The position numbers and the translations under genes are program-made. Shown here piece by piece: positions 12,614-30,624 of a stretch of 64,000 nt of DNA (within the stretch, counting starts at the first letter, position 1; each line of letters starts with the position of its first letter). The DNA is from Coprococcus comes ATCC 27758 (GTDB lineage: Bacteria > Bacillota > Clostridia > Lachnospirales > Lachnospiraceae). The stretch is from assembly GCF_025149785.1 (NCBI RefSeq), contig NZ_CP102277.1:124001-188000 (forward strand), given 5' to 3'. The notes below the pieces were generated by a model that searched no databases, was not told where the DNA came from, and saw only the letters and a list, made by a program, of their open reading frames with translations.

Positions 12614-12618
12614 TCAGA

Positions 12619-12676: not shown

Positions 12677-12808
12677 ATGAAAGATTATATTGAGGAGAGA
12701 GCGGTTGAGATTGCTTATTATATTATTGAAAATAAGGCGACGGTGAGGCAGACGGCGGTGGCGTTTGGGGTAAGTAAGAGTACGATACATGCGGTTGTAA
12801 CAAAATAG
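12677..12808 (+). CDS. spoIIID: spoIIID, 5' half (interrupted sporulation regulator)
   Basis: Codons 1-38 encode the N-terminal helix-turn-helix part of SpoIIID, ending in FGVSKSTIH at 12790. Five foreign codons and a TAG follow. The missing C-terminal half, beginning KDVTERLLQINPSL, lies at 30484-30624. Joined at the shared ACAT they give an 84-residue protein with the canonical STIHKDVTERL junction. SpoIIID is the mother-cell DNA-binding protein that reshapes the sigma-E regulon and helps switch on sigK. In the present arrangement it cannot be made whole. Confidence 0.9.
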   Translation: MKDYIEERAVEIAYYIIENKATVRQTAVAFGVSKSTIHAVVTK

Positions 12809-12937
12809 AATGTTTTGTTTGGAGAATAATATGAGAAAGTAAAGGGGAAAAAAATTGTTTTTTGTCCCTTTACTTACGCAATATGGAGGAATAGAATTAA
12901 TTGTAGGAAAATTACATGAAGAAAGACCGAAGTAGAT

Positions 12938-13816
12938 ATGAATAATGCTGAAGAGAAAAATACAAGTCACATGATTTTTTATGGTGAAAAGGATATAGAT
13001 TATACAAAATCAAGTAACTATGCTTTTTTAAACTGGAATTTTGACAATTCACTTGGTGGGAAAGATAATGTTTCTCAACTTATACAAGATAACTTTGTAA
13101 TGGGAAATGCATATATGGGAAATGCAGTATTAAGTCTATATTCGATTTTGTGTAGTGGAAATTATTGTTCAACGGCAGATGTTCTTATTTTTCCAATTAT
13201 GTTTGATCTTTGGCATGGAGTAGAACTTTGGTTAAAAAGTAGTGTAGATGCGATATATTACATTCTAGGGATGGATAATGAAGTAAAGAAAAACCACAAG
13301 ATTTATGAGTATTTAGAAGTCTTAGAAAAAGAACTGAAAAAATTGGGTATGGAGCAGACAATAGATATTGCGCTACCGGAATTGATTAAACTGATAAAAG
13401 AATTGCAACGTGTAAATGCTAATTTTGATTTCACCAGATATTCTTTTCGTGGAAAAAGGAAGTATCAATTTTATAATGCTCCGCTAGGAGAAGATGAGCA
13501 GTGGCAAAAGAAAGAGAAAAGTGAAGATGAACGAATGCACGTTGATTGGATATCAGAAATGCCAATTGTACCGAATACTTGTGTGGATTTACAAGAATTA
13601 TTTGTTATTATTTTAGGCCTTGTTGATAACTTTAGAACTTTTGTGGAATACTTAACACTGGTAATAGCTGAAGGGGGACAATTGACAGATGATGCATACA
13701 AGAAATATTTGACAGAATGTGAAAAAGTTCAAAAAAATATGGAAGAATGGGATAACAACGAGGGAGACATGGACATGAAAGCAATGATGAAATTTGTATA
13801 TTCGCATATTTTATAA
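12938..13816 (+). CDS. Unknown helical protein next to McrBC (possibly HEPN-like)
   Basis: A 292-residue soluble, mostly helical protein. Residues 85-110 (PIMFDLWHGVELWLKSSVDAI) and the following NHKIYEYLEVLEKELKK resemble helices of HEPN-type proteins, but the catalytic RxxxxH motif is not visible, so the assignment is weak. The ribosome site is poor. It is convergent with mcrC across a shared bidirectional hairpin at 13825-13861. AT-rich codon use matches the defence genes of the element. Function unknown. Confidence 0.6.
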   Translation: MNNAEEKNTSHMIFYGEKDIDYTKSSNYAFLNWNFDNSLGGKDNVSQLIQDNFVMGNAYMGNAVLSLYSILCSGNYCSTADVLIFPIMFDLWHGVELWLKSSVDAIYYILGMDNEVKKNHKIYEYLEVLEKELKKLGMEQTIDIALPELIKLIKELQRVNANFDFTRYSFRGKRKYQFYNAPLGEDEQWQKKEKSEDERMHVDWISEMPIVPNTCVDLQELFVIILGLVDNFRTFVEYLTLVIAEGGQLTDDAYKKYLTECEKVQKNMEEWDNNEGDMDMKAMMKFVYSHIL

Positions 13817-13824
13817 TTCAGATT

Positions 13825-13861
13825 AATTTTTGAGGGGAAGTATTATTTCCCCTCAAAAATT
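13825..13861. terminator. Bidirectional terminator between the 12938 gene and mcrC
   Basis: AATTTTTGAGGGGAA pairs with TTCCCCTCAAAAATT. A and T tracts on both sides allow use in both directions. Confidence 0.8.
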
Positions 13862-14891
13862 AAGTGAAGTTATCTTTAACAATAGAGTTCAAGTTTTCAG
13901 AAATTTTTGAAAAATTCTGATTTAAATTCAATGCACGCACAGAAATCTGATTTCCGCTCATTTGGTATGTATTATTGGGAATAACATCTTCATCAGTCTG
14001 TGCATAAAGAAGCATTCCAGAGACAGTATGTTCACAGTCTTTTAATTCAAATTCTTTATTTTTCACATATGTAAAAATCTGATAGAGGTTATTGGAATGT
14101 AAAGTGTTTGTTCCGTATTGCTGCTGAGTCATATGTGAATAATATTTTGCATCGATAATAAGTATATTGTTTCCCTGAGACAACATAATATCAGTTTGCA
14201 TTTTGGGAAGCAATTGGTTCTCAGAATCATCAAGTTGCCATGCAATCTGTGAGGCATTGGCAGATAGTTCTGGATGTTCTTTACGATAGTATTCAAGCAA
14301 AAATTTTTCATATAAACGGCACATACGTTGTTCGTCAAAAAAATCCATTATTTTTGAGGTACCGTCGTTCTGTGTCTGTAGAAGTCCGTTATAAATCAGA
14401 TAACAGATTCCAATTAACATTTGATAACTTTGATTGGAACGATTATAATGTTGGTTCCAATTTACAAAACGTAAATCAATTTCATTAACATCAGAAAAAA
14501 ACAATAACAGATTTCGTAGACTCTTTTTTCGCGTATTTGTGATATTGGCTTTAAGAAGCAATAACATTGTAGATTTAATAATTTGGTTAAATTGTGTATT
14601 AGTTGAAAATTCATCGTATGTACAAATCATTTGTTTCTTCAGCAGAGTTTGAGTTTTAATGGATTCAGAAATATTAAGCTTTCCCTGTAGTGTAGAAAGA
14701 GATTCTGATTTTGGCACATAATCTCTTCCTAAGCCTCGTTTTAACTGTATGCTAATGCTCTTATCAAGAATGGCTGCACATAATTCAGCGGTATTATGAA
14801 AATTTTCTGTGGCCAGATCTTTGTAATTTTGTGCTTGTAATGCCTGAAAAGCGTAGGACAGCATATAATAAATATTTTGTACAGGAATCAT
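13860..14891 (-). CDS. mcrC: McrC, nuclease subunit of the McrBC restriction system
   Basis: A 343-residue McrC-family protein. The start MIPVQNIYYMLSYAFQ is characteristic. The PD-(D/E)XK-type active site lies near residues 240-260 (QTDIMLS...ILIIDAKYYS). McrC cuts DNA once McrB has translocated from a modified-cytosine recognition site. Its ATG overlaps the mcrB stop by four bases, so the two subunits are translationally coupled. Confidence 0.9.
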   Translation of the reverse strand: MIPVQNIYYMLSYAFQALQAQNYKDLATENFHNTAELCAAILDKSISIQLKRGLGRDYVPKSESLSTLQGKLNISESIKTQTLLKKQMICTYDEFSTNTQFNQIIKSTMLLLLKANITNTRKKSLRNLLLFFSDVNEIDLRFVNWNQHYNRSNQSYQMLIGICYLIYNGLLQTQNDGTSKIMDFFDEQRMCRLYEKFLLEYYRKEHPELSANASQIAWQLDDSENQLLPKMQTDIMLSQGNNILIIDAKYYSHMTQQQYGTNTLHSNNLYQIFTYVKNKEFELKDCEHTVSGMLLYAQTDEDVIPNNTYQMSGNQISVRALNLNQNFSKISENLNSIVKDNFT

Positions 14892-17005
14892 TTAACAGCA
14901 CTCCTTAGTCGATCAGACCAATCTACGATTTTTGCGGGCTCATCAAACCAATATTCTTTTAAAAGTGGAATCAATTCGTATTCTACAATGGATGACAAAG
15001 TTTGTGTGTTGGCTGTTTCTGGTGTTAAACCACAAAAATAACTGTGACCAATACAGAATCCTTCACCTAGTGATATATCTTCTGCTATCTTGGAATTGAG
15101 TTGTTTCACACAAGCAATTAATTTGTTAAAGGCATCATTTTTTAGAGAATCTTGGTAAGCTTGAAAACCAGGCGTATTAAACCCCGGTTTCATAGTAAAA
15201 AATGAAAAACGTCGTCTTAAAGCATAATCTAACATAGCAAGACTACGATCAGCAGTATTCATCATACCAATAATATATACATTTGCAGGTACAGAGAAAT
15301 TCTCATCAGAATATAACAATTGCAGTTCAATCCCCCGCTTATCTTTTTCAATCAGCATAAATAATTCACCGAATATTTTACTTAAATTACCACGATTGAT
15401 TTCATCAATAATAAAGAAATAATCATTTTCATCATCATCCTCGGCCATTTTGCAGAATTTGTAAAAAGAACCCTTTTTAATTGTGAATCCATTTTCCGTT
15501 GGTCGGTATCCTTCAATAAAATCCTCGTAGGAGTAACTCTGGTGGAATTGGATCATTTGAACACGGTCAGGATTTTTTGCGCCGATAATGGAATAAGCAA
15601 GTCGTTTGGCAGTAAAAGTTTTTCCAACTCCAGGTGCGCCTTGTAAAATAATATTTTTCTTCATTTTTAAAACATTTACCAGTGTTTTATAATCTTGTCC
15701 ATTCATATACACATCTGAGAGAAAATCTGCAGAAGAGTAAGCTGGATAGTCTATTTCTGGTTGTGTATCTACATCATCTAATTCATCTGGAGCAAAGATG
15801 GAAGTAAGCTTTTCAATATAATCAGTGTATGGAGTGATATCAGTTAAGCGTTTTGCTACTGCATTACCAGGATGTTCCCATTCGCCAACTTGAAGCCATT
15901 TTATAGCACGGACATTTTTATATTCCTGACGAAGATCGTCAAAGACATAATTTCCAGTGACAATACCTTTACCAAGAAGAGTGTTGCTACGTTTCGCAAA
16001 AATCACATCGTTAACTGATACGGTATTTGCAAAATTCCATGCCATCAAAGCCTGATTTTTTCGTGAAGTACTACTGTCGTACACATCTATCAGTTCTTGA
16101 CGGAGAGCTTCCTTGGAAGCAAATTGGGAATAATCACCAATATCGTCCATACCTAAAACCATGATTCCTTTTTGTTGGCATTCATTCCAACTTTTATCAT
16201 CAAAGACGGTATACATCCAGTAGTGCGTTTTATGTTTTTTATCGGAAAGCGTATTTGTGTCAGAATCATTAGTCTCATTAGTATATCCTACATTTTTCCC
16301 ATAAATATGAGCAAAGACAACTCCGGGAACATTGCATTTTCTTGCATATAATGAAATTTGTCCCATGCGAATGAAAGGAATATCACTTGGTTTTTGATTT
16401 AGAAAATGCAATACTCTCAGCTGAATATCCTGTCCATAAAATGGAGCGAATAATGTTGGAAAGAGCATTTGATAATATTTCATGCGCCATACCATATTGA
16501 TTCCCGGGATATGTTCCAGCTGTTTATAGAGTTGTTCGTAATCTTTTTCAGAATCTAAAGGACCAAAAGAAGATATTATTTCAGCACCTTCAACCAGATC
16601 ATTTCGCATTTCTTCTGCTTTTTGTATTGCTTCATCCTCAGTAAGATGTATAGGTTTTAATGGAGATCCACAGGTCCAACTTTGATTTTTCTTATGATAG
16701 AATAATCCAAATTTATATGCTGCTCCGCCGGAAATACTTCCAAATACTTCGCGGATATCTTTGTCCATTTCAAGTCTATAGCAGAGATTGGTTTTAGTTC
16801 CTTCGTCATTATAAAATAAAGAAGTTAACAAATCTTTTCCAAAAAGTGATTTTAAGCGTTCTATTCCAAAAAGATTTATAAAATTTTCTCGTAACTCATC
16901 AGCCTTGTGAGCAAATGAAATCCATTCTGGAGTCTGAGATTCGCTATAAAACCATTCAGGAGAATATTTTCCTGACCCATTTTCTGTTATCTGAATGTTC
17001 GACAT
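14888..17005 (-). CDS. mcrB: McrB-like GTPase of a modification-dependent restriction system
   Basis: A 705-residue protein. Residues about 260-405 look like an EVE/PUA-type modified-base reader (HYWMYTVFDDKSW...GIVTGNYVF). The C-terminal AAA+ motor has Walker A GAPGVGKT near residue 455, DEINRGNLSKIFGEL and the McrB signature MMNTADRSLAMLDYALRRR near 581. McrB uses GTP to move along DNA and activate McrC. GGAGGTATATT precedes the ATG. The nested mobilizable element begins about 90 bases upstream of this start, so the promoter region may have been altered by that insertion. Confidence 0.92.
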   Translation of the reverse strand: MSNIQITENGSGKYSPEWFYSESQTPEWISFAHKADELRENFINLFGIERLKSLFGKDLLTSLFYNDEGTKTNLCYRLEMDKDIREVFGSISGGAAYKFGLFYHKKNQSWTCGSPLKPIHLTEDEAIQKAEEMRNDLVEGAEIISSFGPLDSEKDYEQLYKQLEHIPGINMVWRMKYYQMLFPTLFAPFYGQDIQLRVLHFLNQKPSDIPFIRMGQISLYARKCNVPGVVFAHIYGKNVGYTNETNDSDTNTLSDKKHKTHYWMYTVFDDKSWNECQQKGIMVLGMDDIGDYSQFASKEALRQELIDVYDSSTSRKNQALMAWNFANTVSVNDVIFAKRSNTLLGKGIVTGNYVFDDLRQEYKNVRAIKWLQVGEWEHPGNAVAKRLTDITPYTDYIEKLTSIFAPDELDDVDTQPEIDYPAYSSADFLSDVYMNGQDYKTLVNVLKMKKNIILQGAPGVGKTFTAKRLAYSIIGAKNPDRVQMIQFHQSYSYEDFIEGYRPTENGFTIKKGSFYKFCKMAEDDDENDYFFIIDEINRGNLSKIFGELFMLIEKDKRGIELQLLYSDENFSVPANVYIIGMMNTADRSLAMLDYALRRRFSFFTMKPGFNTPGFQAYQDSLKNDAFNKLIACVKQLNSKIAEDISLGEGFCIGHSYFCGLTPETANTQTLSSIVEYELIPLLKEYWFDEPAKIVDWSDRLRSAVK

Positions 17006-17098
17006 AATATACCTCCGAATTTATAAATACGAATTTGAATAACACAATTTTATAGCCTCTTAGCAGAGGTTATAGTCTATCAATAAAATCCTCCAAAA

Positions 17099-17108
17099 GC
17101 CTTGAAAA
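17099..17108 (+). other. Candidate attL of the nested element
   Basis: GCCTTGAAAA, repeated at 23584-23593. It lies in the mcrB upstream region. Confidence 0.5.
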
Positions 17109-17292
17109 TAAAGGATTTATCGCAATGTGTTCGCCTTATCCCTTTATATGATTTCACACAAGTTTACTCTCTCCCTGACTGCTTATAAGGGCAAAATCAA
17201 GGGAAAGAAAATCCCATAACAAGATATAACAGAGTGTGGCAATCGGAGAACTGTGACATATGTGCGAATATATTATAGTGGAGGATTTTTTA

Positions 17293-17673
17293 ATGAACAA
17301 GTATATTTATGATGAAAGCAATGGTCTTTGGTATGAACTGCAAAGAGATTATTATATCCCTTGCCTGACCTTACCAGCCGAAAAAGAAAACAAACCTATC
17401 GGTTTATGGGGGCAGCGACACAAACGATATTTACAGGAACATAAGAGGGCGTTTTACGCCACGCTACTCACAAGTGGCAAGTTGAATGCTTATCTTGCGG
17501 ATGTCGATAAACAGGCGGAGGAACGCTTTGAAAGGATTGTAGAACAGATGAAGCAGGCACAGGGTATCACGGAACGCCTAAAGGCGAAAAATGCCTTAGA
17601 ATGGGTTGGACAGATGAATAACATTCGGGCTTGTGCTATGGAGATTGTGGAGAGGGAAATTATATTCGCATAA
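17293..17673 (+). CDS. tnpV: TnpV family transposon protein
   Basis: The start at 17293 is chosen because GTGGAGG lies upstream; an earlier ATG at 17260 would include that ribosome site. The 126-residue protein carries the TnpV signature G.WGQRHKRYLQEHKRAFYATLLTSGKLN and ends in a helical region. TnpV is common on clostridial transposons of the Tn4451 type and on Lachnospiraceae mobilizable elements; its function is not established. An inverted copy of its leader sequence precedes the integrase gene. Confidence 0.75.
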   Translation: MNKYIYDESNGLWYELQRDYYIPCLTLPAEKENKPIGLWGQRHKRYLQEHKRAFYATLLTSGKLNAYLADVDKQAEERFERIVEQMKQAQGITERLKAKNALEWVGQMNNIRACAMEIVEREIIFA

Positions 17674-17812
17674 GTAGACAAGGCGGCAGGGAGTAAATTC
17701 TCTGTCGCTTATTTTTACTGTATTTTCGTTACGAAACTTGACAAAAATCTCTCCCTTTATTATAATTTATGTTATATAACAATAATTATAAAATGGCGGA
17801 GAGGTGAAAAAT

Positions 17813-18376
17813 ATGCCACCAAAGGTGAAAATTACAAAAGAGATGATTATAGATGCAGCATTTGAGATAGCACGAAGTGAGGGAGCAGAAAATATCAATG
17901 CACGAACTGTATCAAAAAAATTAGGCTGTTCCACTCAACCTGTTATGTATCATTTTAAAACAATAGAGGAATTGAAAAAAACTGTATATGTTAAGGCAGA
18001 TGAGTATCATTCCGAATATATAACTAATATTCAGAGTGAAAATCCGATGAAAGATATTGGACTGAATTATATACGCTTTGCTGAAACAGAAAAAAATTTG
18101 TTTCGGTTTCTATTTCAAACAAATGAGTTTATAGGAAAAAATATTTCTGAGTTGATAAATTCTGAAGAATTACAGCCTATTATAGCTATACTGAGTAAAG
18201 AAGTAGAGGTCAATACAGAACAGGCGAAAACCATTTTCCGTTCATTATTCCTGATTGCACACGGATATGCAAGTATGTTTGCAAATAACGAAATGACCTA
18301 TGACGAACAGACGATTATATCTGATTTAGACTTGGTATTTGACGGAACAGTTTATTCATTGAAAGGAGGATTATAA
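17813..18376 (+). CDS. TetR family transcriptional regulator
   Basis: The ATG at 17813 follows GGAGAGG with proper spacing. The 187-residue protein has a TetR N-terminal HTH (TKEMIIDAAFEIARSEGAENINARTVSKKLGCSTQPVMYHFKTIEEL) and an all-helical ligand domain. Its stop overlaps the start of the CPBP protease gene, which it probably regulates together with itself. The signal it senses is unknown. Confidence 0.88.
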   Translation: MPPKVKITKEMIIDAAFEIARSEGAENINARTVSKKLGCSTQPVMYHFKTIEELKKTVYVKADEYHSEYITNIQSENPMKDIGLNYIRFAETEKNLFRFLFQTNEFIGKNISELINSEELQPIIAILSKEVEVNTEQAKTIFRSLFLIAHGYASMFANNEMTYDEQTIISDLDLVFDGTVYSLKGGL

Positions 18377-19119
18377 TGTATCGTTTATATAAGAAAAATG
18401 AATTAAATTTCTCATTGGTTTGGATTATTTCCTATGTTGTTTTGTTTAGTGTTGCTGACAGCTTTTCTGCTTCGCTTGGCACTGAAAAAATAATTGCTGC
18501 ACCCGTTGCTATAGTTTTTACATTGCTTCTTTTAGTTTTTGTGAGTAAACACAACTTAAAAGAAAAATACGGTCTGTGTTCTTTTAATGGAAGCCTTAGA
18601 AATTTCTTATATTTTACTCCGCTACTTCTAATTATGAGTATTAACCTATGGAATGGCGTTACGATGAAGCTGTCTGTTTTAGAAACTGTGTTATATATTT
18701 TAAGTATGCTCTGCGTTGGATTCATTGAAGAAATTATTTTTCGTGGATTTCTGTTCAAAGCATTATACAATGACAATGTAAAGTTGGCGATTGTTATCTC
18801 AAGTGTTACTTTTGGAATTGGACATATTGTAAACTTACTGAACGGAAAAGATTTAATACCTACACTCTTACAAGTTTGTTATGCAATCGCAATAGGTTTT
18901 CTTTTTACAATTATTTTTTACAAAGGAAAGAGCCTTTTACCGTGTATTATTGCACATAGTTTTGTAAATTCTTCGAGCGTTTTTGCTGTTGAAAATTCTT
19001 CAATGAAGTTTCATATTATTTCAAGTGCAGTATTATGTATTATTAGCTTAAGTTACGCACTGTGGATATTGAAAAAAACAAAACAATTTGATGAATATGA
19101 AAATAATGATAGGCGGTGA
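18376..19119 (+). CDS. CPBP family intramembrane metalloprotease
   Basis: A 247-residue polytopic protein with seven to eight hydrophobic segments. The CPBP/ABI motifs are present: EEIIFRGFLF (the EExxxR box), FGIGHIVN and HSFVN. In Firmicutes such proteins process prenylated substrates or give self-immunity to bacteriocins. It is translationally coupled to the TetR gene. As cargo of a mobilizable element, an immunity or resistance role is plausible but not shown. Confidence 0.85.
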   Translation: MYRLYKKNELNFSLVWIISYVVLFSVADSFSASLGTEKIIAAPVAIVFTLLLLVFVSKHNLKEKYGLCSFNGSLRNFLYFTPLLLIMSINLWNGVTMKLSVLETVLYILSMLCVGFIEEIIFRGFLFKALYNDNVKLAIVISSVTFGIGHIVNLLNGKDLIPTLLQVCYAIAIGFLFTIIFYKGKSLLPCIIAHSFVNSSSVFAVENSSMKFHIISSAVLCIISLSYALWILKKTKQFDEYENNDRR

Positions 19120-19128
19120 TGATATTAT

Positions 19129-19302
19129 ATGCCAACTATTATTTCAGAATGGATATATTGCCCTGTATGCGGCAATAAAACCCGTACTATGATACGGGAA
19201 GATACGGAATTAAAAAACTTTCCTCTCTACTGTCCGAAATGTAAGCAGGAAACAATCATCAATGTTCAGGATATGAAAATTACACTTGCAGACAGTAAAT
19301 AA
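19129..19302 (+). CDS. Cysteine-rich KTR-type zinc-ribbon protein
   Basis: A 57-residue ORF, MPTIISEWIYCPVCGNKTRT... with a second CPKC pair, matching the Cys_rich_KTR family of integrative elements (CPxCGxKTR then CPKCK). It probably binds one zinc. A terminator follows it. Function unknown; common in Tn916-like and mobilizable elements. Confidence 0.8.
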   Translation: MPTIISEWIYCPVCGNKTRTMIREDTELKNFPLYCPKCKQETIINVQDMKITLADSK

Positions 19303-19310
19303 TTATGTAT

Positions 19311-19347
19311 ACCGCCGCTATGGATAACACCATACACGGCGGTTTTT
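19311..19347. terminator. Terminator between the KTR gene and the relaxase
   Basis: ACCGCC (19311-19316) pairs with GGCGGT (19338-19343), followed by TTTTT on the plus strand. It separates two convergent units. Confidence 0.65.
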
Positions 19348-19353
19348 GAATGC

Positions 19354-21253: not shown

Positions 21254-21433
21254 TTTATCAACCTCCTTTCAAAATACGCATTTTGCAACTGTGTATCTGT
21301 AATTATACTTATTTTGCTATCTCTTGTCAACTTGTTTTGCAACTTATTAAGAAATATTTTTGCCTATTATTAAATTTATGGTTGCAAAATAAGTTTTTCT
21401 ATGCTATACTATCAGCAATAGGAGGTGAAAACC

Positions 21434-22120
21434 TTGAAAAAAGAAATTACATTCACCGCAAAACAGGTCGGTGAACGAGTGAAAGAACGCCGAACAGAAT
21501 TAAACTTAACAATGCCCGAACTTGGTAAGCGTGTCGGGGTAAACAAATCTACTATTCAGAGATATGAAGCGGACGGAGTAGACCCGAAGCGTACAATGAT
21601 TATCAATGGACTGGCAGAGGCACTCCTGACCACTCCCGAATGGCTGACAGGACTTTCCGAAGATAAGGAATATGATAGCCGCACTTTATGTGCAAGGGAT
21701 ATGGAGGAACATATCAAAAAATATCTTGATACGGTTTCTTCTGTGGTAAAGGGAGAACCGCACCAACAGCTGCTCACGACATTCCTCGGAAAGATGATTG
21801 ACCTCTATACGGTTATGGCTTATCACTTTGCAGACGCAACGGCTGAAGTTGACCGTGTAGCGGAGGACGAAGGCTTAAAGCAGTCCTTACGCCGCTATGC
21901 GATTGAGTCAAGGGCAATTATGGAAAGAGTTTACCGTAAAGAAATGGAACTTCCTATCGAGGATATGAAGCAGTTTTTAGATGGGATTTTACATATCTAC
22001 GATGAGGGACGCACCGCTGTAAAGATGGGCGACCTGTTCGGGATAGTGACAGCAGCTGAAGAAAGGGTTGCTGAAAAAGAAAAATTCCGTGGCTCTTTGA
22101 CAAGTGAAAACGATGACTGA
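21434..22120 (+). CDS. XRE family regulator of the nested element
   Basis: A TTG at 21434 preceded by AGGAGG eight bases upstream is the likely start (MKKEITFTAKQVGERVKERR). The 228-residue protein has an N-terminal Cro/C1 HTH (LNLTMPELGKRVGVNKSTIQRYEADG) and a helical C-terminal domain. The intergenic spacer to the divergent xis gene is AT-rich and is the expected operator region. It probably controls xis and mob expression. Confidence 0.85.
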   Translation: MKKEITFTAKQVGERVKERRTELNLTMPELGKRVGVNKSTIQRYEADGVDPKRTMIINGLAEALLTTPEWLTGLSEDKEYDSRTLCARDMEEHIKKYLDTVSSVVKGEPHQQLLTTFLGKMIDLYTVMAYHFADATAEVDRVAEDEGLKQSLRRYAIESRAIMERVYRKEMELPIEDMKQFLDGILHIYDEGRTAVKMGDLFGIVTAAEERVAEKEKFRGSLTSENDD

Positions 22121-22207
22121 CACTCATCGGCATAAGTAACCTTATTACTTTACGCACACCATATGTCACAGTCCCGATTGCCACGGATAGAAAGGGGAAA
22201 TTTATCT

Positions 22208-23506
22208 ATGGCAAAAGGTTCTGTAAGAAAAAAAGGTAAAAAGTGGTACGCACGCTTCTACATCGAAGATGAAAGCGGCAGAAAAGTACAGAAAGAGTTT
22301 GTGGGAACAGAAAGCAAGTCTGAAACAGAAGCCCTGCTCAGAAAAGCAATCGCTGACTATGAGGAAAAGAAATTCGTTGCGAAGTCTGAAAACATCACGG
22401 TTGGTATGCTGCTCGATCTGTGGGTGGAGGAAGAAGTGAAACCCGGTAATCTCAGCAATGGTACGGTAATGTCCTATCAAGGAACGGTCAACCGTATCAA
22501 ACAGCACCCGATAGGAAACCGAAAGCTGAAAACCGTAACCGCCGACCATTTACAGGCGTATATAGACTTTCTCAGCTTTGGAGGCACAAATCCTGACGGT
22601 ACAACTGCAAAGGCACTCAGCAAAGGGTATCTCCGATTGTTTTCGGCTGTTTTACAAGGGGCGTTCCGTTTTGCAGTATTCCCGAAAAGGCTGATAACCT
22701 TTAACCCGATGCAGTATGTGGTATGGCGAGGAAAGAAAGAAGAATACGAGCTGTTCTCTTACGAGGATGGGGAAACAACTTCCACACCAACGCTCAGCTA
22801 TGACCAGTATCAGAGGTTAGAGGACTTCCTGAAAAAGAAAAACAATCCTGCACTTCTTCCTATACAGATAGCCTATTATACAGGCTTGCGTATTGGAGAG
22901 GTCTGTGGTCTGACTTGGCAGGACATCAACCTTGAAGAACAATATCTGACAGTACGCCGCAGTATGCGTTACAACGGGGCAAGGCACAAAACAGAAATAG
23001 GGGCAACAAAGCGTAAAAAAATCCGCACCGTTGACTTTTGCGATACGCTTGCCGCAATCCTGAAAACTGCGAAAGCAGAACAGCATAAAAACCGTTTCCG
23101 ATACGGGGAACTGTACAGTCTTAATTACTATTTGGAGGTCAAAGAAAAAGACCGCACCTATTATGAGGTTTACAGTCTGCCGAGGGCGGAGGAAGTCCCA
23201 GAGGGGTACAAGGAATTATCCTTTGTCTGCCTTAGACCTGACGGGGCATTTGAAGCACCGAGTACGGTGGGGATTATGTGCAGGACAGCGAGAAAAAAGT
23301 TGGAGGGATTGGAGGATTTCCACTTCCATATGCTCAGACACACCTATACAAGCAATCTGCTTTCAAACGGTGCAGCACCTAAAGATGTGCAGGAACTACT
23401 CGGACACACTGATGTTAGTACCACAATGAACATTTACGCTCACGCTACAAGGGAAGCGAAGCGTACTTCCGCAAGACTACTGGATAAGGTAATCGGCGGA
23501 GCATAA
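22208..23506 (+). CDS. Tyrosine integrase of the nested element
   Basis: The ATG at 22208 (MAKGSVRKKGKKWY) has AAAGGGG upstream. The 432-residue enzyme has an N-terminal arm-binding AP2-like domain, a core-binding SAM-like domain and the catalytic domain. Catalytic landmarks are GLRIGEVCGLTW (Arg), HMLRHTYTSNLL (His-x-x-Arg), ELLGHTDVSTTMNIYAHAT (His and the nucleophilic Tyr). It sits 78 bases inside the candidate attR, the normal position. Confidence 0.92.
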   Translation: MAKGSVRKKGKKWYARFYIEDESGRKVQKEFVGTESKSETEALLRKAIADYEEKKFVAKSENITVGMLLDLWVEEEVKPGNLSNGTVMSYQGTVNRIKQHPIGNRKLKTVTADHLQAYIDFLSFGGTNPDGTTAKALSKGYLRLFSAVLQGAFRFAVFPKRLITFNPMQYVVWRGKKEEYELFSYEDGETTSTPTLSYDQYQRLEDFLKKKNNPALLPIQIAYYTGLRIGEVCGLTWQDINLEEQYLTVRRSMRYNGARHKTEIGATKRKKIRTVDFCDTLAAILKTAKAEQHKNRFRYGELYSLNYYLEVKEKDRTYYEVYSLPRAEEVPEGYKELSFVCLRPDGAFEAPSTVGIMCRTARKKLEGLEDFHFHMLRHTYTSNLLSNGAAPKDVQELLGHTDVSTTMNIYAHATREAKRTSARLLDKVIGGA

Positions 23507-23583: not shown

Positions 23584-23593
23584 GCCTTGAAAA
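23584..23593 (+). other. Candidate attR of the nested element
   Basis: GCCTTGAAAA, matching 17099-17108; it lies 78 bases after the integrase stop. Confidence 0.5.
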
Positions 23594-23700
23594 CACAGGG
23601 TTTACAGAGGATTGAATAGATAAACTAGAATTAGTATATCATTTAACTGCAGCACTGTCATAGATTATCGAAAAATAGAATTATATTGATATTGAAAGAG

Positions 23701-23996
23701 AAGAGCAAGATCCACCCGGGTAATACCGTATCGTAATAATTGAAAATAATATTTAGAAATTAGGAATATTATATTGGCTATATTGAAAATGTAAGCAGGT
23801 AAAAATTGAAATTTTTTTACAGAGCATCTGGCAGAAGCCAGGTGCTTTTTTTGAAAATTTTGAAAGAAAATATCATGTAAATAGTGCGGAAATCTTTGAT
23901 GGAAGCTAATTAAATGAAGATGAAATTGAATCAAGAGGATGAAAATAGAAGATTCATCAAAAATAAACTTGTTAAACACAGGTGGATCTTGCTCTT
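23701..23996. repeat. MITE-like sequence with 16-bp terminal inverted repeats
   Basis: AAGAGCAAGATCCACC at 23701-23716 is exactly inverted at 23981-23996, with further partial matching inside. The 296-bp interior has no convincing gene. It contains a hairpin with T-tract (AGCATCTGGC/GCCAGGTGCT, 23823-23852). I see no clear target duplication. It may be a miniature transposable element or an IS remnant. The rest of the gap 23507-24267 holds only the candidate attR and AT-rich spacer. Confidence 0.5.
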
Positions 23997-24267
23997 GTAT
24001 AAAAATTCAGATTAAAAAGAAGAAAGAAATAACAATGAGCGAGATTCACTAGGGATTACAGTACCTTAATTGGTTCTCTGCTTATCTTTAAGATTATGTG
24101 AAATTTTGGGATGCACAGTAATGAAATTATGAAAAAATTAAAAAAATTCTGATGAGGGGGCTGTATTTTATGCCCTCTCCTTTTGTATATATAGAGGGAT
24201 AAATTTTTGTGGATATAAAATTCAAAAATATATTTCCTCAAATATTGAGAAGGTGAGGAAGAAACAA

Positions 24268-24825
24268 ATGAAATATTTGTACATGAATGAGCAGGAGCGG
24301 CAGATACAGTATTATCAATTTCCAAAATTCTTGCTGGAATTACAGCTAAGTCAGAATGCAAGAATTATTTATATGCTGTTGTATGACCGGGCGAGAATAT
24401 CACGAAAGAATAATTGGACAGATGAGGATGGAAGAGTATATGCAATATTTCCAATTGAAGAACTATCACAGAAAACCGGGAAGTGCAAATCTTCTGTTAA
24501 AAAGGCTTTGAAAGAACTAGATGATGCAGGACTGCTAATTCGGAAATTTGGTGGATTTTCAAAACCAAGACATATGTATGTAATGATACCAGACAAAGTA
24601 GAGGTTTTTGGAAAGGTACAATTACAGACAGATATAAAGAAAGCCGATAGAGAGTTTAAAAATGAGCTTTCATATGGTCAGAATGATAACTCTACAAAGG
24701 ATATAAATACGGCATCTAATAAAGTAATAGAGAAAAATAACTCAAGTAATAAGTATGGAGTAAGTAGTTACAGTATAAAGAATCAAAAGATGAATTATGA
24801 GTGTGGGGAGGGAGAAAGCCTGTGA
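24268..24825 (+). CDS. Replication initiator RepA-like winged-helix protein
   Basis: The ATG at 24268 follows GAGGAAG. The 185-residue protein resembles the RepA_N-type initiator domain: FPKFLLELQLSQNARIIYMLLYDRARIS then IEELSQKTGKCKSSVKKALKELDDAGLL, a winged helix. Its stop overlaps the start of the DnaC-like gene, a pairing typical of plasmid and integrative-element replication modules. It suggests the element can replicate, at least after excision. Confidence 0.75.
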   Translation: MKYLYMNEQERQIQYYQFPKFLLELQLSQNARIIYMLLYDRARISRKNNWTDEDGRVYAIFPIEELSQKTGKCKSSVKKALKELDDAGLLIRKFGGFSKPRHMYVMIPDKVEVFGKVQLQTDIKKADREFKNELSYGQNDNSTKDINTASNKVIEKNNSSNKYGVSSYSIKNQKMNYECGEGESL

Positions 24826-25613
24826 TGTATGAGATACAAACATATTTAGGCGCAGATGGATTGATGCATTGTACTGTTTGTAAAGAACCCGTAGAAGCAT
24901 TTTATCCAAAAGGTTCTTTGCTTGAAATGAGAAAGCATCACAGGCAGTGTGCGTGTGAAAGGAAGGCATATGCAGAGGAGACACAATATTATAAAGAAAA
25001 AGAGCATCGGGAGCTAATCGCAAGAAATAAGAAAATCTGCTTTGAGGAAAAAGAAATGGAGGGATTTACATTTCAAAATGTAGAAAGAGATAGTGGCGTT
25101 ATAAGAATCGCAGAAGAATATGTAACAAACTGGCAAAAAATGAAGCAAAACCATATGGGATATTTGTTCTGGGGACCAGTTGGAACAGGAAAAAGTTATC
25201 TGGCTGCTTGTATTGCGAATGCATTGCTGGAAAAAGAAGTTACCGTGAAAATGACAAATTTCAACACCATATTAAATGATTTGTTTGCAGCTGAAGACAA
25301 GAAAGAATATATCAGATCATTGAATGGATATGAGCTTTTAATTATTGATGATCTTGGTGTAGAACGGAGCAGTGAGTATGTATTAGAAAATATTTTCAGT
25401 GTGATTGATTGGAGATATCGATCGGGGAAACCTTTGATTATCACAACAAATCTTCCTTTAGCACAATTAAAACAAGAGACAAAAATTGAGAAGAAAAGAA
25501 TTTATGACAGAATTCTGGAAAGATGTATTCCGGTAAAAATTGATGGAGTCAGCAGACGAGAAGCCATGGCAAATGACAATATGCAGACTATGAAAAACAT
25601 TCTGAAAATCTAG
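24825..25613 (+). CDS. DnaC/IstB-like helicase-loader ATPase
   Basis: The start at 24825 overlaps the preceding stop (TGATG) and has GGGAGGGAG upstream. The 262-residue protein has an N-terminal cysteine cluster (CTVCKEPV...CACE), then AAA+ motifs: Walker A WGPVGTGKSYLA, Walker B LLIIDDLGVERSSEY, sensor-1 IITTNL and RIYDRILERC. Together with the RepA-like protein it forms a replication-initiation module. Confidence 0.85.
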   Translation: MYEIQTYLGADGLMHCTVCKEPVEAFYPKGSLLEMRKHHRQCACERKAYAEETQYYKEKEHRELIARNKKICFEEKEMEGFTFQNVERDSGVIRIAEEYVTNWQKMKQNHMGYLFWGPVGTGKSYLAACIANALLEKEVTVKMTNFNTILNDLFAAEDKKEYIRSLNGYELLIIDDLGVERSSEYVLENIFSVIDWRYRSGKPLIITTNLPLAQLKQETKIEKKRIYDRILERCIPVKIDGVSRREAMANDNMQTMKNILKI

Positions 25614-25681
25614 GACTATTTCAGAAGGACATTTCATAGTAATGGACAAAGAGTGAGCAGGGAGGAGGTGGAAACTTCACC

Positions 25682-25867
25682 GTGGCGAAAAGAAAACTGA
25701 ACTATCGATTTCATAATCCAAATCCGGTGGAAGTGACCGCCGATTACATATTGAAAGTGATGATAGAAGTGAATACTGAGAAGGTGGAGAAAGCTATAAG
25801 AGTTAAAATGCAGACAATTACTGAGAAAAAATATAATGATATACAAAAGAAGGATGGCTTTGAATAA
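25682..25867 (+). CDS. Small basic protein of unknown function
   Basis: A 61-residue lysine-rich ORF with a GTG start and GGGAGGAGG about 15 bases upstream. It follows the DnaC-like gene and precedes the defence trio. Similar small ORFs often trail replication modules of Lachnospiraceae elements. It is one candidate for the directionality factor of the serine recombinase, but nothing in the sequence proves this. Confidence 0.5.
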   Translation: MAKRKLNYRFHNPNPVEVTADYILKVMIEVNTEKVEKAIRVKMQTITEKKYNDIQKKDGFE

Positions 25868-25874
25868 ACTAATT

Positions 25875-25883
25875 TGGTATAAT
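25875..25883 (+). promoter_or_regulatory. Extended -10 promoter of the sce7726/beta/RES trio
   Basis: TGGTATAAT (TGn plus TATAAT), about 35 bases before the first start codon; the -35 region is weak. Confidence 0.5.
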
Positions 25884-25917
25884 ATTTTAACAGATATGGA
25901 TAATGGAGGTGAAAGGT

Positions 25918-26778
25918 GTGGAAAAGAATAAATTGAATATTTTAAATAAATTTTTTTCTCGGAACACTTTTCGTCACTGTTATGAAGAGGGATATGATAA
26001 AATATATGGGCAAGTGATAAAAAAATATATCAATTATGATTCAACAAAAACTAATTCCGAATTGGTTAGCGAAATTTATAATATTTTAAAAACGGAATAC
26101 AGAAACGAGTATTATTATAAGAACACGCTTTTAAATAAATTGTTATTGGGGATTCATAGTGTAAATACAACGACTGCTTTAACAGAAATTCCTATTGCAA
26201 AATCAAAGGCAGATTTTGTTTTGATAAATGGAAAAGCTGTTGTTTACGAAATTAAAACTGAACTAGATAATTTGGAAAGATTGGAAAGTCAAATTAATGA
26301 TTATTTTAAAGCGTTTGATCATGTAGCAGTAGTTACATATAATGAAAATGTTACAGCAATACAAAAAAAGATAGATAGCATCGGAAAACCAGTTGGAATA
26401 TACGTATTGCAGAATCGTGGAACAATAAAAACAATACAAAAACCAGAAAAGTATAGAAATGCATTGGATAGTAAAATTATATATAAGATTTTGAGAAAGC
26501 CAGAGTATGAAGAAATAATTTTGAATAAATATGGATTTTTACCTAATGTATCAGCGTTTGAATATTATTCCGAATGCCGAAAATTGTTTGAGAAGATGCC
26601 TATAGAAGAATCATATGAATGGGTTTTGAAATTGTTAAAAAAGAGAACTAAAATTATAAAAAATGAATATAAAGAAATACCGTATGAATTGAAATTTTTA
26701 GCTTATTTTATGGATTTGAAATCAGAAGATTATGAGAAAATAAGATGTTTTCTTAATCAAGCATATGGAGGTGTATAG
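25918..26778 (+). CDS. sce7726 family protein (predicted PD-(D/E)XK nuclease)
   Basis: I place the start at the GTG at 25918, because the upstream in-frame ATG lies inside GGAGGTGAAAGG. The 286-residue protein has a restriction-endonuclease-like core near residues 91-117: EIPIAKSKADFVLI...AVVYEIKTELD, giving D...E-x-K. The sce7726 family is almost always next to the sce7725/beta family, as here. It is translationally coupled to the next gene (2-base gap). A role in phage defence is inferred from family context and location in a defence-rich element. Confidence 0.8.
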   Translation: MEKNKLNILNKFFSRNTFRHCYEEGYDKIYGQVIKKYINYDSTKTNSELVSEIYNILKTEYRNEYYYKNTLLNKLLLGIHSVNTTTALTEIPIAKSKADFVLINGKAVVYEIKTELDNLERLESQINDYFKAFDHVAVVTYNENVTAIQKKIDSIGKPVGIYVLQNRGTIKTIQKPEKYRNALDSKIIYKILRKPEYEEIILNKYGFLPNVSAFEYYSECRKLFEKMPIEESYEWVLKLLKKRTKIIKNEYKEIPYELKFLAYFMDLKSEDYEKIRCFLNQAYGGV

Positions 26779-26779
26779 A

Positions 26780-27712
26780 ATGTATTTTCCTTATTTACGA
26801 GGAAGACAATTTGAGTTGATTGCATTACGAGAATTGTTAGAAAGTGAACGAATTGGACAAGAGATTATTCCGATTATAGAACCAGTAAAGCCATCGGCAA
26901 CATTATTGAAAACTTTAGAATGCTTTGTTAATCATGATAGAGAAATTGCAGTAGTATTTAATCCAGCTGTAGGAGATTTCCCTAAAAAGATAAATGAAAT
27001 GAGAAGGGAGAATTCTAAAATCGCAAATGAGTTGTATGAGTTATTAACAAAACATAATAAAATTATTAAATCGTATATTATGAGTGCTAAAAGCGCAGTT
27101 AAATTAAAGACGGATGAATTAAAAACGGAAAGATTGATAATAAATCCGGATAGAGATTGTTTAGATGATTTTTTAGAGGTGTATGATAAATCTTTGCCAA
27201 GATATACATTGATTCCAGATGATAGAGCTTTTAGAAGAGTGATTTCAGAATCTAAAGTGTTATTTGAAGATAATTTCAATAAAAGATCAAGAAATATAGA
27301 TTATATAGAACATGAGGATGAGTTCTTTTCAGATAGTCATTTGTATTTTCAAAATGAAAATTATGTAGGATTTGCAGATTATTCTGTTGTAGGGGAAGAA
27401 TTTAATGAATCTGGTTTTGCTCCTGTTGCGGTTGCAATTCATATAGTTTATTTTAACGAAAAGAAAGAATTGAGAATACATCATTTTGTATCTGATTCTA
27501 ATGATGGAATAGAAGATCCTGGTGGAAAATTTGGAGAGGCTTTGGAAAAGTTAGTATATTGGTGCGAGGAAAATAATGTTCAGAATACATTAGGATTACA
27601 AGGATTTTATGATTGCTATAATTCAGGAAAATATCCAGGTTTAGGAACTGTAAAAAAGTACTCAATTATGCATCATTTGGAATTGGTCAGTAATTTCTTG
27701 GGAGGAAAGTAG
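26780..27712 (+). CDS. Beta family protein (sce7725-like)
   Basis: Start chosen at 26780 with GGAGGTGTATAGA upstream. The 310-residue protein opens with MYFPYLRGRQFELIALREL, the hallmark of the sce7725/'beta' family named after a phage T4 protein. It is predicted to adopt a TIM-barrel-like fold, with acidic motifs such as IPIIEPVKP and DYSVVGEEF. Biochemical function is not established. The tight spacing to its partners indicates one complex or pathway. Confidence 0.8.
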   Translation: MYFPYLRGRQFELIALRELLESERIGQEIIPIIEPVKPSATLLKTLECFVNHDREIAVVFNPAVGDFPKKINEMRRENSKIANELYELLTKHNKIIKSYIMSAKSAVKLKTDELKTERLIINPDRDCLDDFLEVYDKSLPRYTLIPDDRAFRRVISESKVLFEDNFNKRSRNIDYIEHEDEFFSDSHLYFQNENYVGFADYSVVGEEFNESGFAPVAVAIHIVYFNEKKELRIHHFVSDSNDGIEDPGGKFGEALEKLVYWCEENNVQNTLGLQGFYDCYNSGKYPGLGTVKKYSIMHHLELVSNFLGGK

Positions 27713-27714
27713 TA

Positions 27715-28797
27715 ATGCAAATTGGCTTAGAATGCTTTATGGATGAGCAGATTAGTTCAATGATTGCAAGTGAAAATCGACATGGAGAATGTGAAATTCA
27801 AGGTAAGAAGGAATGCATTGTTTATGATACAAATGAAGATCATTATTTAGAAGGATATTTAGAAGAAATTATGGATGCATTTACTGTTGCAAAACATTTA
27901 AGAGTGTCTGAGACAGATGCAAGAGTGGGATATTTGCATACATTTTTGGCTCGTTGGAAAGTATTTAAAGTAGATGAAAAGAGTATTCAAAAGATAATCA
28001 AAGCTATATGTAGCCAACGTTATCAAGATGAGCCGGAACTGTTTGATGAAAAAGTTACAATTAGAGAATTATTTTCAGCAGATGAAATGGAGCGTAAGTG
28101 CATTTTGAAAACATATAGTTGGGATGATTTTTGCTATAATATAAAACATGTTAATCGATTTCATTCGCAACAAGTTAATTTTAGAGAATTGAAAAATTTA
28201 TTAGATAATATGCTTGTTGATATTCCGGCGGGAAGTTTGACTTTATATCGATCTAGGATATGTGATGAAGAGAGTTATCTAAAAGGTTACTCAAACAAAA
28301 AGATGGGTGTACCGCCAGTTCCGTTAACTACTGCAGGACGAACGAATTCGGAGGGAATACAATGCTTATATTTGGCAAGTGATGAAGAAACAACTTTTCA
28401 TGAAGTCAGAGCTCGGGATAATGATCATGTATCGGTAGGTGAATTCTGTCAAATAAAGGATTTAAAAATAGTTGATTTAAGTTTATTTGATAAAATAGGT
28501 CCATTTTCAATTCCAGATTTTGATATGACATGGTTTGCAATCAATATTGATATTATCCGAAAAATTGGAAATGAAGTCGCGATGCCTATGAGAAGATTTG
28601 ATCGTGCATTAGACTATGTTCCTACGCAGTATATATGTGATTATGTAAAACATTTGGGTTATGATGGAATACGATATAAAAGTACCTTGGTTGAAGGCGG
28701 AATTAATTATGCTATTTTTGATGAAAAGAAATTCGATTGTGTAGGAGTAAAGGTAGTACATATTGGAAATATTCATTATGAATGGAAAGAGCTATAG
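27715..28797 (+). CDS. RES-domain protein (predicted NAD+-consuming toxin)
   Basis: A 360-residue protein; ATG follows GGAGGAAAG, three bases after the preceding stop. The C-terminal half is a RES domain: YRSRICDEES near 176, GRTNSEGIQCLYLASDEETTFHEVRA near 207-232, and YDGIRYKS...GGINYAIFD near 330. RES domains (MbcT type) degrade NAD+. The N-terminal 160 residues are an additional helical domain. No adjacent antitoxin of the usual Xre-MbcA type is present, so the two partner proteins may gate the activity. A strong terminator follows. Confidence 0.8.
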   Translation: MQIGLECFMDEQISSMIASENRHGECEIQGKKECIVYDTNEDHYLEGYLEEIMDAFTVAKHLRVSETDARVGYLHTFLARWKVFKVDEKSIQKIIKAICSQRYQDEPELFDEKVTIRELFSADEMERKCILKTYSWDDFCYNIKHVNRFHSQQVNFRELKNLLDNMLVDIPAGSLTLYRSRICDEESYLKGYSNKKMGVPPVPLTTAGRTNSEGIQCLYLASDEETTFHEVRARDNDHVSVGEFCQIKDLKIVDLSLFDKIGPFSIPDFDMTWFAINIDIIRKIGNEVAMPMRRFDRALDYVPTQYICDYVKHLGYDGIRYKSTLVEGGINYAIFDEKKFDCVGVKVVHIGNIHYEWKEL

Positions 28798-28800
28798 AAA

Positions 28801-28851
28801 AAATCGAGAAATTGTATTAGACATGAAACTAATACAAATTTCTCGATTTTT
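28801..28851 (+). terminator. Long-stem terminator after the RES gene
   Basis: A roughly 20-bp near-perfect stem, AAATCGAGAAATTGTATTAG against its complement, then a T run. It isolates the recombinase gene from the upstream operon. Confidence 0.85.
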
Positions 28852-28852
28852 A

Positions 28853-28880
28853 TTTACATATTTGCGTATTACGATATAAT
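28853..28880 (+). promoter_or_regulatory. Vegetative-type promoter of the serine recombinase
   Basis: TTTACA, 16-base spacer and TATAAT. The predicted start falls on an attB-like sequence (28882-28898). I see no good sigma-E or sigma-K match here. Confidence 0.6.
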
Positions 28881-28881
28881 A

Positions 28882-28898
28882 AAAGATGTAACAGAACG
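28882..28898 (+). repeat. 17-bp copy of the spoIIID junction at the recombinase promoter
   Basis: AAAGATGTAACAGAACG is identical to 30484-30500, the first codons of the spoIIID 3' half. TACGATA just upstream also matches the spoIIID 5' half at 12781-12787. It is thus a near-complete attB mimic with two extra bases in the middle. Confidence 0.8.
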
Positions 28899-28925
28899 AT
28901 ATAACTATAACAGAGAGGTAGCATT

Positions 28926-30485
28926 ATGAACATAGCAGCCTATTGCCGAGTCTCCACCGACAAAGCTGATCAGCTCAACAGTCTGGAAGCCCAAAAGGAA
29001 TTCTTTTCAGAATATACCAAGCGCACAGGGGACACTTTAGTAAGATTATATGCAGATGAGGGTATTTCTGGAACTAAAATTAAAAATCGTAAAGAATTTC
29101 TTCGCATGATGTCTGATGCAGAGCATGGATTATTTGATATGGTTGTTGTAAAAGACATCTCTCGTTTTGCAAGAAATACTGTAGATCTTTTACAGAATGT
29201 CCGTAAGCTGAAATCATTGGGAATTGAGACACAATTCTTAACAGCGAATATGACCAGTATGGGAAACAGCGAGTTTGTTCTCACCATTTTTGGAGCTCTG
29301 GCACAGGAAGAAAGTGCAAATACTTCCAAGCGTGTAAAGTTCGGCAAGAAGATGAACGCAGAAAAAGGACGAGTTCCTAATATTGTATATGGATACGATA
29401 AAACAATCGGAGATTATTTTAATCTTGCAATCAATAAAGAAGAATCTAAAGTTGTACAGCAGATTTACAAGTGGTATACAGAAGAAGGTTACGGTGCGGC
29501 CAAGATTGCAAATATGTTAAATGAAAAAGGTTATAAGACAAAACGAAATTGCAAATGGAGTCAGAATGCAACTTGCCGTATTTTGACAAATGAAATATAT
29601 ACCGGAAAAATTATCAATGGCAAGCAAGAAGTCAGTGATTTCCTGACTGGTCAGAGAAGAGACAAGGACGAGACTGAATGGATGGTTGTGGAGCGGCCGG
29701 AACTTCGAATCATAGAAGATGAGACATTTGAAAAAGCACAGGAGATTTTAAGAGGCAGACATGATGCATTTAATCTTAGTCACGAACGGCAGAGTAATAA
29801 ACATCTGTTTTCGACACTGATTAAATGCAAAGAATGTGGCTGGTCCTTCCGGAGAACGGTTCGTACTTATAAGAACACGTATGTACGCTGGGTATGCTCT
29901 GGGCGAAACGGCCGGGGAGTAGATAGTTGCCCAAATAAAACGGTTGTGGACGAGGAAGAACTCATTGAAGTTCTGCAGGAATATTTTACAAATGTATTGA
30001 AACAAAAGAAAAAAGTGATTGCTCATGTGGTAAATGAGTTTCAGCGTGTATATAAAGCTAAAGATGAAAATGTAGAGTACGAAAAAGAATTAAATGCAGA
30101 ACTTGCTAAATTGCAAAAGACCAGACAAAAATATATGGATATGTATACGGATGATTTGATTTCTCGTGAAGAGTTGAATGAGAAGATTGGTGGCTCTCGT
30201 CAGGAAATGGAACGAATAGAAAATGAACTCAAGATGGTATCTTATCATTTAACCAAAGGGGAACAGTTAGAGAATATTTTAAATAATACATTTAAAGAAA
30301 TTGAAGACATTACTGATGTACACCAGATGACCAATCAGCAGTTAAAGCGATTGATTCAGAAGATAGAAGTAGATAAGGATGGAAATGTAGATATTTACTT
30401 ACGTTTGCTTGGTGATCTCGGCTTAGATGAGTCTGTATTAATTGATGAAAATGAAACCGTTCAAAAATGTAACAACCAAACATAA
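28926..30485 (+). CDS. Large serine recombinase of the spoIIID element
   Basis: A 519-residue enzyme comparable in size to SpoIVCA of skin elements. Residues 1-150 are the resolvase domain (YCRVSTD with Arg8 and nucleophile Ser10; DEGISGT; KDISRFARN). Residues 160-270 are the recombinase domain. Near 295-345 is a zinc ribbon (CKECGWSF...CSGRNGRGVDSCPN), followed by a coiled-coil region. AGAGAGGTAGC precedes the ATG. The stop codon TAA is formed by spoIIID sequence at the right junction. It is expected to insert the element into, and excise it from, spoIIID. Confidence 0.93.
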   Translation: MNIAAYCRVSTDKADQLNSLEAQKEFFSEYTKRTGDTLVRLYADEGISGTKIKNRKEFLRMMSDAEHGLFDMVVVKDISRFARNTVDLLQNVRKLKSLGIETQFLTANMTSMGNSEFVLTIFGALAQEESANTSKRVKFGKKMNAEKGRVPNIVYGYDKTIGDYFNLAINKEESKVVQQIYKWYTEEGYGAAKIANMLNEKGYKTKRNCKWSQNATCRILTNEIYTGKIINGKQEVSDFLTGQRRDKDETEWMVVERPELRIIEDETFEKAQEILRGRHDAFNLSHERQSNKHLFSTLIKCKECGWSFRRTVRTYKNTYVRWVCSGRNGRGVDSCPNKTVVDEEELIEVLQEYFTNVLKQKKKVIAHVVNEFQRVYKAKDENVEYEKELNAELAKLQKTRQKYMDMYTDDLISREELNEKIGGSRQEMERIENELKMVSYHLTKGEQLENILNNTFKEIEDITDVHQMTNQQLKRLIQKIEVDKDGNVDIYLRLLGDLGLDESVLIDENETVQKCNNQT

Positions 30486-30624
30486 AGATGTAACAGAACG
30501 TCTTCTCCAGATCAACCCATCTCTTGCAGGTGAGGCGCGAAAGGTTCTGGATCTGAACAAATCGGAACGGCACATCCGGGGCGGACTTGCTACCAGAGAA
30601 AAGTACCTGCATCAGCACGCATAA
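30484..30624 (+). CDS. spoIIID: spoIIID, 3' half
   Basis: Codons 39-84: KDVTERLLQINPSL, then the conserved ARKVLDLNKSERHIRGGLATREKY tail of SpoIIID. The fragment has no start or ribosome site of its own at this point; an upstream ATG within the recombinase 3' end would give a meaningless fusion. It continues exactly from codon 38 at 12790 when the intervening element is removed. Confidence 0.9.
   Translation, partial: KDVTERLLQINPSLAGEARKVLDLNKSERHIRGGLATREKYLHQHA

Follow-up and report, generated by a model that had tools for sequence, protein, structure and literature searches.

Split sporulation genes have been named in several instances, i.e. sigK, spsM, kamA, spoVFB, gerE and yabG in the reports consulted (PMC6957869, PMC5595907, PMC10747680). 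In the case of the sigK element (skin) of C. difficile, a recombinase, CD1231, is reported to be produced constitutively, and a recombination directionality factor (RDF), CD1234, to need both sigma-E and SpoIIID (PMC5025042). Here we describe a stretch of Coprococcus comes ATCC 27758 (64,000 nucleotides, positions 124001-188000 of a genome that consists of a single contig of 3,373,066 bp and has a completeness rating of 100%; hereafter the window) in which spoIIID itself is split by an element that encodes its own large serine recombinase. The literature searched, including PMC6957869, PMC5595907, PMC10747680 and PMC3533761 and with most subscription journals and bioRxiv outside its scope, yielded no split spoIIID, and an earlier first-pass annotation of the window likewise could not name a described spoIIID element with confidence.

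In the present case the split gene encodes a regulator that in the known models acts before sigma-K, and sigma-E would therefore have to set off excision without the help of SpoIIID. With a probability of about 0.8, we regard the insertion as an integrative mobile element whose attachment site is spoIIID and which the host tolerates because the element would leave on cue in the mother cell. Its assignment to the developmentally excised, skin-like elements is well supported, though indirectly, by the findings described below.

The split gene and its distribution

Codons 1-38 of spoIIID occupy positions 12677-12790 and codons 39-84 plus the stop codon positions 30484-30624, both on the forward strand, and the gap of 17,693 bp between them cuts the gene inside STIH|KDVTERL, which corresponds to the helix by which the DNA-binding domain recognizes its sites. 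The N half (MKDYIEER...SKSTIH, to 12790) continues into five codons of the element (AVVTK) and a stop, giving 43 residues in total, and the C half (KDVTERL...LHQHA) runs from 30484 to a stop codon at 30622-30624; each half separately matches TIGR02844, under the cut-off for the whole protein (E 1.5e-16 and 1.5e-17). A core ACAT is present at both ends (attL, 12787-12790; attR, 30480-30483; neither with a strand), and joining the flanks at this core restores an intact spoIIID reading frame, as in a sporulation gene-intervening element. The joined protein of 84 residues aligns over residues 1-80 with the solved structure of B. subtilis SpoIIID (2l0k, E 1.1e-26). On re-reading the sequence, the first-pass annotation thus proved accurate with respect to the coordinates of both halves, the shared ACAT and the intact 84-codon join, and also in placing a 519-residue serine recombinase against the right junction (28926-30485, its stop codon overlapping that junction). 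It had further proposed to look for a second intact spoIIID in the genome, for uninterrupted copies in relatives and for other insertions in the gene. With regard to the first, a search of the whole one-contig genome with TIGR02844 (E <= 0.001) returned the two halves and no second gene. With regard to the second, a genome of the same genus (G001) contains a whole spoIIID, the 3' half and downstream flank of which are 97.9% identical to the window over 1,630 bp.

The comparison with G001 (window 12322-12790 on the left side) gives an identity of 82% for the N half, 98% for the C half and 97-98% for the flanks, i.e. a mosaic break at the att core; both G001 contigs end near the spoIIID site, from which we take it that gene order is probably conserved. 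The best sigK match in the Coprococcus comes genome is a single open frame of 217 residues in which no split was seen; it scores below the family cut-off, as do the sigK matches in all 14 control genomes.

The element that the first-pass annotation had recognized in spoIIID is real, but it is not private to the strain: it belongs to a large family that reaches many gut genera. The recombinase alone was used as a query, and the best 80 of 189 relatives were fetched from a species-level genome collection. In 75 of these 80 the 3' half of spoIIID stands directly behind the core at codon 39, the core being spelled ACAT (65 junctions), ACAC (8) or GCAT (2), which rules out a chance junction; two of the other five leave the contig at or just behind the core (L041, L080) and three have no spoIIID there (L020, L037, L042). 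Twelve elements could be fully delimited, with lengths of 3.5, 3.8, 4.1, 4.2, 5.5, 6.3, 7.3, 11.9, 12.5, 14.2, 16.6 and 17.7 kb, and the element in genome G113 spans about 75 kb. The latter contains a frameshifted second N half of spoIIID (L172:2710-2815), which lies some 2.7 kb from the genuine half and may be the remnant of an earlier insertion.

The distribution of split genes was established in a sample of 299 Lachnospiraceae genomes from 298 genera, 188 of which have a SpoIIID match at E <= 0.001 (157 of them above the cut-off) and 111 no match at all. By taking the partial matches and reading their junctions (left only for G010, G207 and G262, right only for G178 and G190) we found a split spoIIID in 22/299 genomes, 19 by the present insertion and three by a different one. 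G122, where the gene merely ends at a contig edge, was dropped, G212 was not counted, and G261 combines a recombinase cut by a contig end with an intact spoIIID. Seventeen of the 19 carriers have no intact paralog and two have a divergent one (G031, at L163:17531-17773 just upstream of the split copy, and G190, at L135). The different insertion (G083, G139 and G178; loci L179, L180 and L209-L212) is an unrelated system with a GAT core at codon 40, four bases further on, and, as judged by eye, three consecutive serine recombinase genes; spoIIID has therefore been targeted at least twice.

Recombinase, attachment sites and companion gene

The recombinase (28926-30485, forward strand) contains the Resolvase, Recombinase and zinc-ribbon domains of the large serine recombinases (PF00239, PF07508 and PF13408, each above cut-off), belongs to a PHROG integrase family and is encoded within the element, with attL and attR at the element ends. 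Its stop codon consists of the core T and the two bases with which codon 39 of spoIIID begins, an overlap found in 60 of the 75 loci. When the two ends of the element are joined, the attP so deduced is imperfectly palindromic around ACAT, and a joined attP next to the recombinase is present in four viral contigs, which represent the excised or free form of relatives. Two degenerate att patterns gave no match in the viral contigs, though the joined attP of another spelling is present there.

In the circular form that is deduced, the frame of the recombinase continues through attP into the left element end (12791-12832, forward strand), which holds an attP arm and a tail of 14 codons. Such a tail of at least nine codons is found in 19 of the 21 distinct left ends of this insertion type (14 codons in eight, 17 in three, 18 in four, 20 in one, nine in L163 and ten in L073; no stop within 25 codons in L165, and an immediate stop in L162 and L166), it ends in W-x-[IV]-x-stop in 13 of them, and it comprises 14 codons in each of the two distinct viral attP sequences. 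That the tail lengths differ by whole codons while the ending is kept indicates translation of the tail, and the C-terminus of the recombinase should therefore depend on whether the element is integrated or circular.

The recombinase is preceded by a sigma-A-like promoter (TTTACA-16-TATAAT, 28853-28880, forward strand) that is followed by GATGTAACAGAACG. The motif GTAACAGA occurs within 70 bp upstream of the recombinase in 55 of 89 upstream regions, and in the window it is part of an exact 17-nt repeat of spoIIID positions 30484-30500 (AAAGATGTAACAGAACG, 28882-28898, forward strand). This repeat, with its GTAACAGAACG site, may be an operator by which the recombinase is controlled and which mimics its target.

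Upstream of the recombinase lies a second gene that appears to matter, which encodes a protein of 61 residues (25682-25867, forward strand) with the family pattern LNYRFHNPN..TADYLLKI..EAN..KVE. A profile of this family recovers the gene in 10 of the 12 delimited elements, the window included, and always upstream of the recombinase on the same strand (with a weak match in L163, E 4e-7). It is present in 45 of the 80 fetched loci within the retrieved DNA, which mostly covers 3 kb upstream, and in 8 of 200 genomes, once in each. All eight of these have a split spoIIID (other split genomes in the sample not being listed): seven by the present insertion, the eighth, G083, with a weak partial match and the other insertion type. 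Among 2.9 million viral contigs, the recombinase and the small protein as queries both lead to one set of four contigs, and around the recombinase three of the four do not differ from each other. On the basis of this co-occurrence and its position, the small protein may be the RDF of the element.

The upstream region of the small gene was scanned for a -35 sequence that matches KMATATT, which we take to be the sigma-E consensus, at five or more of seven positions and lies exactly 14 nt before CATA. This layout, represented in the window by GACTATT-N14-CATAGTAA (25614-25642, forward strand), was found in 45 of 55 unique and 27 of 36 non-redundant regions, compared to shuffle means of 1.5 and 0.8; any other spacing from 8 to 20 nt occurs in no more than 7/55, and upstream of the recombinase the layout is present in only 4 of 89 regions. 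Of the host spoIIID upstream regions, scanned without shuffles, 24/34 attain the threshold at a spacing of 13-15 nt, and in 21 of these the spacing is exactly 14 nt. If the small protein is an excision factor, the promoters predicted in 45/55 regions would make its expression sporulation-specific. At the expected start site of the small gene, ATGGACAAAG (25642-25651, forward strand) resembles what we take to be the B. subtilis SpoIIID box consensus, and the arrangement CATA-N3-6-GGACAA is found in 25/55 unique and 12/36 non-redundant regions (shuffle mean 0.02). The control point of the element is more likely the small gene than the recombinase.

It is rather unlikely that the LNYRFHNPN protein serves another function of the element that is timed to sporulation and that excision is brought about by a different factor. 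The name RDF is not backed by any family, fold or structure match: the best matches of the protein are at E 0.024 in Pfam, 0.081 in PHROGs and 0.18 among solved structures, without a phage match, its structure is modelled as one long lone helix, and its profile finds nothing in two delimited elements (L162 and L165). Nevertheless, these two have recombinases that are only 45-48% identical to that of the window, each preceded directly, as judged by eye, by a short frame of similar kind, and in the three minimal elements of about 4 kb (L056, L068 and L073) the short upstream frame is, again by eye, the sole gene shared besides the recombinase.

Proposed excision on cue, or loss of the gene

According to the mechanism that we propose, the recombinase would be made in growing cells from its sigma-A-like promoter and would on its own only integrate. 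During sporulation, sigma-E would direct synthesis of the RDF in the mother cell, attL and attR would recombine, the element would leave as a circle, and the rejoined spoIIID would drive the next step of mother-cell gene expression, while the forespore chromosome would keep the element and pass it on to the spores. As the target spoIIID is itself split, activation of the RDF must not need SpoIIID, unlike in the C. difficile skin. More speculatively, SpoIIID would then repress the RDF promoter via the box at its start site. The full version, a self-limiting circuit across gut Clostridia in which sigma-E turns on the RDF, excision yields SpoIIID, SpoIIID shuts the RDF promoter and the exchange of the recombinase C-terminus favours a different reaction in each state, is a tentative extension that we consider doubtful as a whole.

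The first-pass annotation had suggested a skin-like element with timed excision. The likeness to skin holds, and timed excision gains from the lack of a second spoIIID, the open halves, the retention of spoIVA and the sigma-E-like promoter, the excision itself being predicted; what changes is that the element looks like a mobile, non-prophage one and that control more likely resides in the small gene at 25682-25867 than in the recombinase.

A number of observations weigh against excision on cue. The excision junction is known only as the joined attP in viral contigs of relatives, and the literature listings searched held no sporulation records for the named carriers. The spoIIID promoter region of the window (12615-12676, forward strand, ACATACA-N14-CATAGATT in the scan) scores 4/7 in its -35, i.e. 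below the threshold, spoIVA upstream regions reach it in only 11/20 cases in a scan without shuffle control, and the conservation of the promoter of the small gene may in part stem from common descent of the elements, as shuffles do not control for kinship. In addition, 35 of the 80 fetched loci have no RDF-like gene within the retrieved DNA, and the split genome G010 yields no match at E 1e-6. Finally, the N half looks foreign in the strain (82% identity to G001 versus 98% for the C half), which favours a recent or mosaic event, and recent insertions would also be compatible with a retained spoIVA.

One alternative is a mobile element of the ordinary kind for which spoIIID happens to be the attB and whose insertion simply abolishes sporulation, the hosts having no need of spores. 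The element does carry transfer and defence-type genes, its excision rests on prediction, and spore loss is common in the family, as seen from the 111/299 genomes without any spoIIID match. The element also moves: in 20 of 38 locus pairs the similarity of the recombinases exceeds that of the host flanks by more than 8 points, from which it follows that horizontal movement is common. Nevertheless, we judge mere inactivation improbable. It would leave the sigma-E-like promoter of the companion gene without a purpose. In each of the 75 split loci the 3' half is an open frame for 42 codons and ends 44 to 63 codons after codon 38. In the 13 of 38 pairs where recombinase and flank have diverged similarly (within 5 points), the differences in the 3' halves add up to 291 at the nucleotide level but to 42 at the amino-acid level, although these pairs are not independent and may include separate insertions. 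A first comparison of silent and replacement changes between split and intact 3' halves was uninformative (54 versus 2 pairs, with a loosely drawn split class) and was superseded by this stricter recount. In addition, spoIVA is kept in 22/22 split genomes, compared to 194/299 overall, by which carriers look like spore formers, rather than being proven so; hosts with an intact gene have spoIVA as a rule as well.

Excision that is real but random or stress-driven, at low frequency and with spores made by the cells that lost the element, is highly improbable: the yin element of C. botulinum is reported to be excised at all time points (PMC10747680), and the viral contigs contain a joined attP, yet loss before sporulation would strip the spores of an element that is found in 19/299 genomes, almost one per genus, and would leave the sigma-E-like promoter and the co-occurrence of the small gene unexplained.

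Two consequences deserve mention. Gene halves this short readily escape notice or are annotated as pseudogenes, and carriers may therefore be wrongly scored as non-sporulating. Moreover, the att sites, the recombinase and the candidate RDF together could be of use as a serine-integrase tool in gut Clostridia.

Element content and comparison with described elements

Besides the genes discussed above, the element carries, from left to right, a 292-residue protein without a match in Pfam, NCBIfam or PADLOC (12938-13816, forward), McrC and McrB-like restriction proteins (13860-17005, reverse), a TnpV-family protein (PF14198; 17260-17673, forward), a weak TetR-family match together with a CPBP-type membrane protease (17804-19119, forward), a MobA/L relaxase (PF03389; 19354-20829, reverse), a helix-turn-helix regulator with a tyrosine integrase (21425-23506, forward; perhaps belonging to a nested mobile element), a RepA_N replication protein with a DnaC/IstB-like ATPase (24253-25613, forward) and, between the small gene and the recombinase, sce7726 and sce7725 family proteins with a RES-domain protein (25903-28797, forward). 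By name, McrBC and the sce7726/sce7725 pair with the RES protein are cargo of the defence or toxin type; the 292-residue protein and the TetR match with the membrane protease are counted as further cargo. Scans of element proteins against Pfam and NCBIfam recognized no phage structural gene (the PHROGs scan covered only the recombinase, as P0002, and the small protein), and the proteins scanned included no conjugation genes besides the relaxase, oriT not having been searched for. Because no phage structural gene was recognized and a MobA/L relaxase, RepA_N, McrBC and other cargo are carried, the element looks like a mobile, non-prophage one, and it may be an integrative and mobilizable element. 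A phage origin was considered and judged unlikely: at E <= 1e-60 a relative of the recombinase is found in one of 50,697 phage records and one of 72,556 plasmids (32.1% identity), next to the four viral contigs. The phage record (L185, MT838016.1) is an unverified, unannotated 6.4-kb faecal 'Bacteriophage sp.' with 58.8% identity and without a profile match to the RDF-like protein.

The C. difficile sigK skin (PMC5025042) is a close parallel, as in both cases a large serine recombinase lies inside the split gene of a mother-cell regulator that is precisely rejoined (a rejoining deduced for spoIIID), with a sigma-A-type promoter on the recombinase and a sigma-E-type promoter on a small RDF (predicted for the spoIIID element). 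The systems differ in that spoIIID as a target acts upstream of sigma-K and the RDF cannot depend on SpoIIID for its activation, that the small protein is from another sequence family as far as searched, and that excision is predicted here. The B. subtilis SP-beta in spsM and skin in sigK (PMC6957869, PMC4191935) share the unit of attL, recombinase, RDF (a candidate in the spoIIID element) and attR by which a sporulation gene is, or here would be, rejoined, but both are prophages, skin a defective one, and they sit in other genes, whereas most spoIIID carriers are not phage; the four viral contigs of the family resemble SP-beta more than the other carriers do. With yin in yabG of C. botulinum (PMC10747680) the element has in common its location in a sporulation gene, a small protein that may be the RDF and a promoter of the sporulation type, predicted in the case of spoIIID; yin, however, is prophage-like, has a sigma-K-type promoter and is reported as unique to one strain. 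The B. cereus gin in gerE (PMC5595907) is likewise a non-phage element that splits a very small gene for a mother-cell transcription factor, but it has three recombinase genes and gerE as its target, and it is the second type of spoIIID insertion, with its three serine recombinases, that is more gin-like in this respect.

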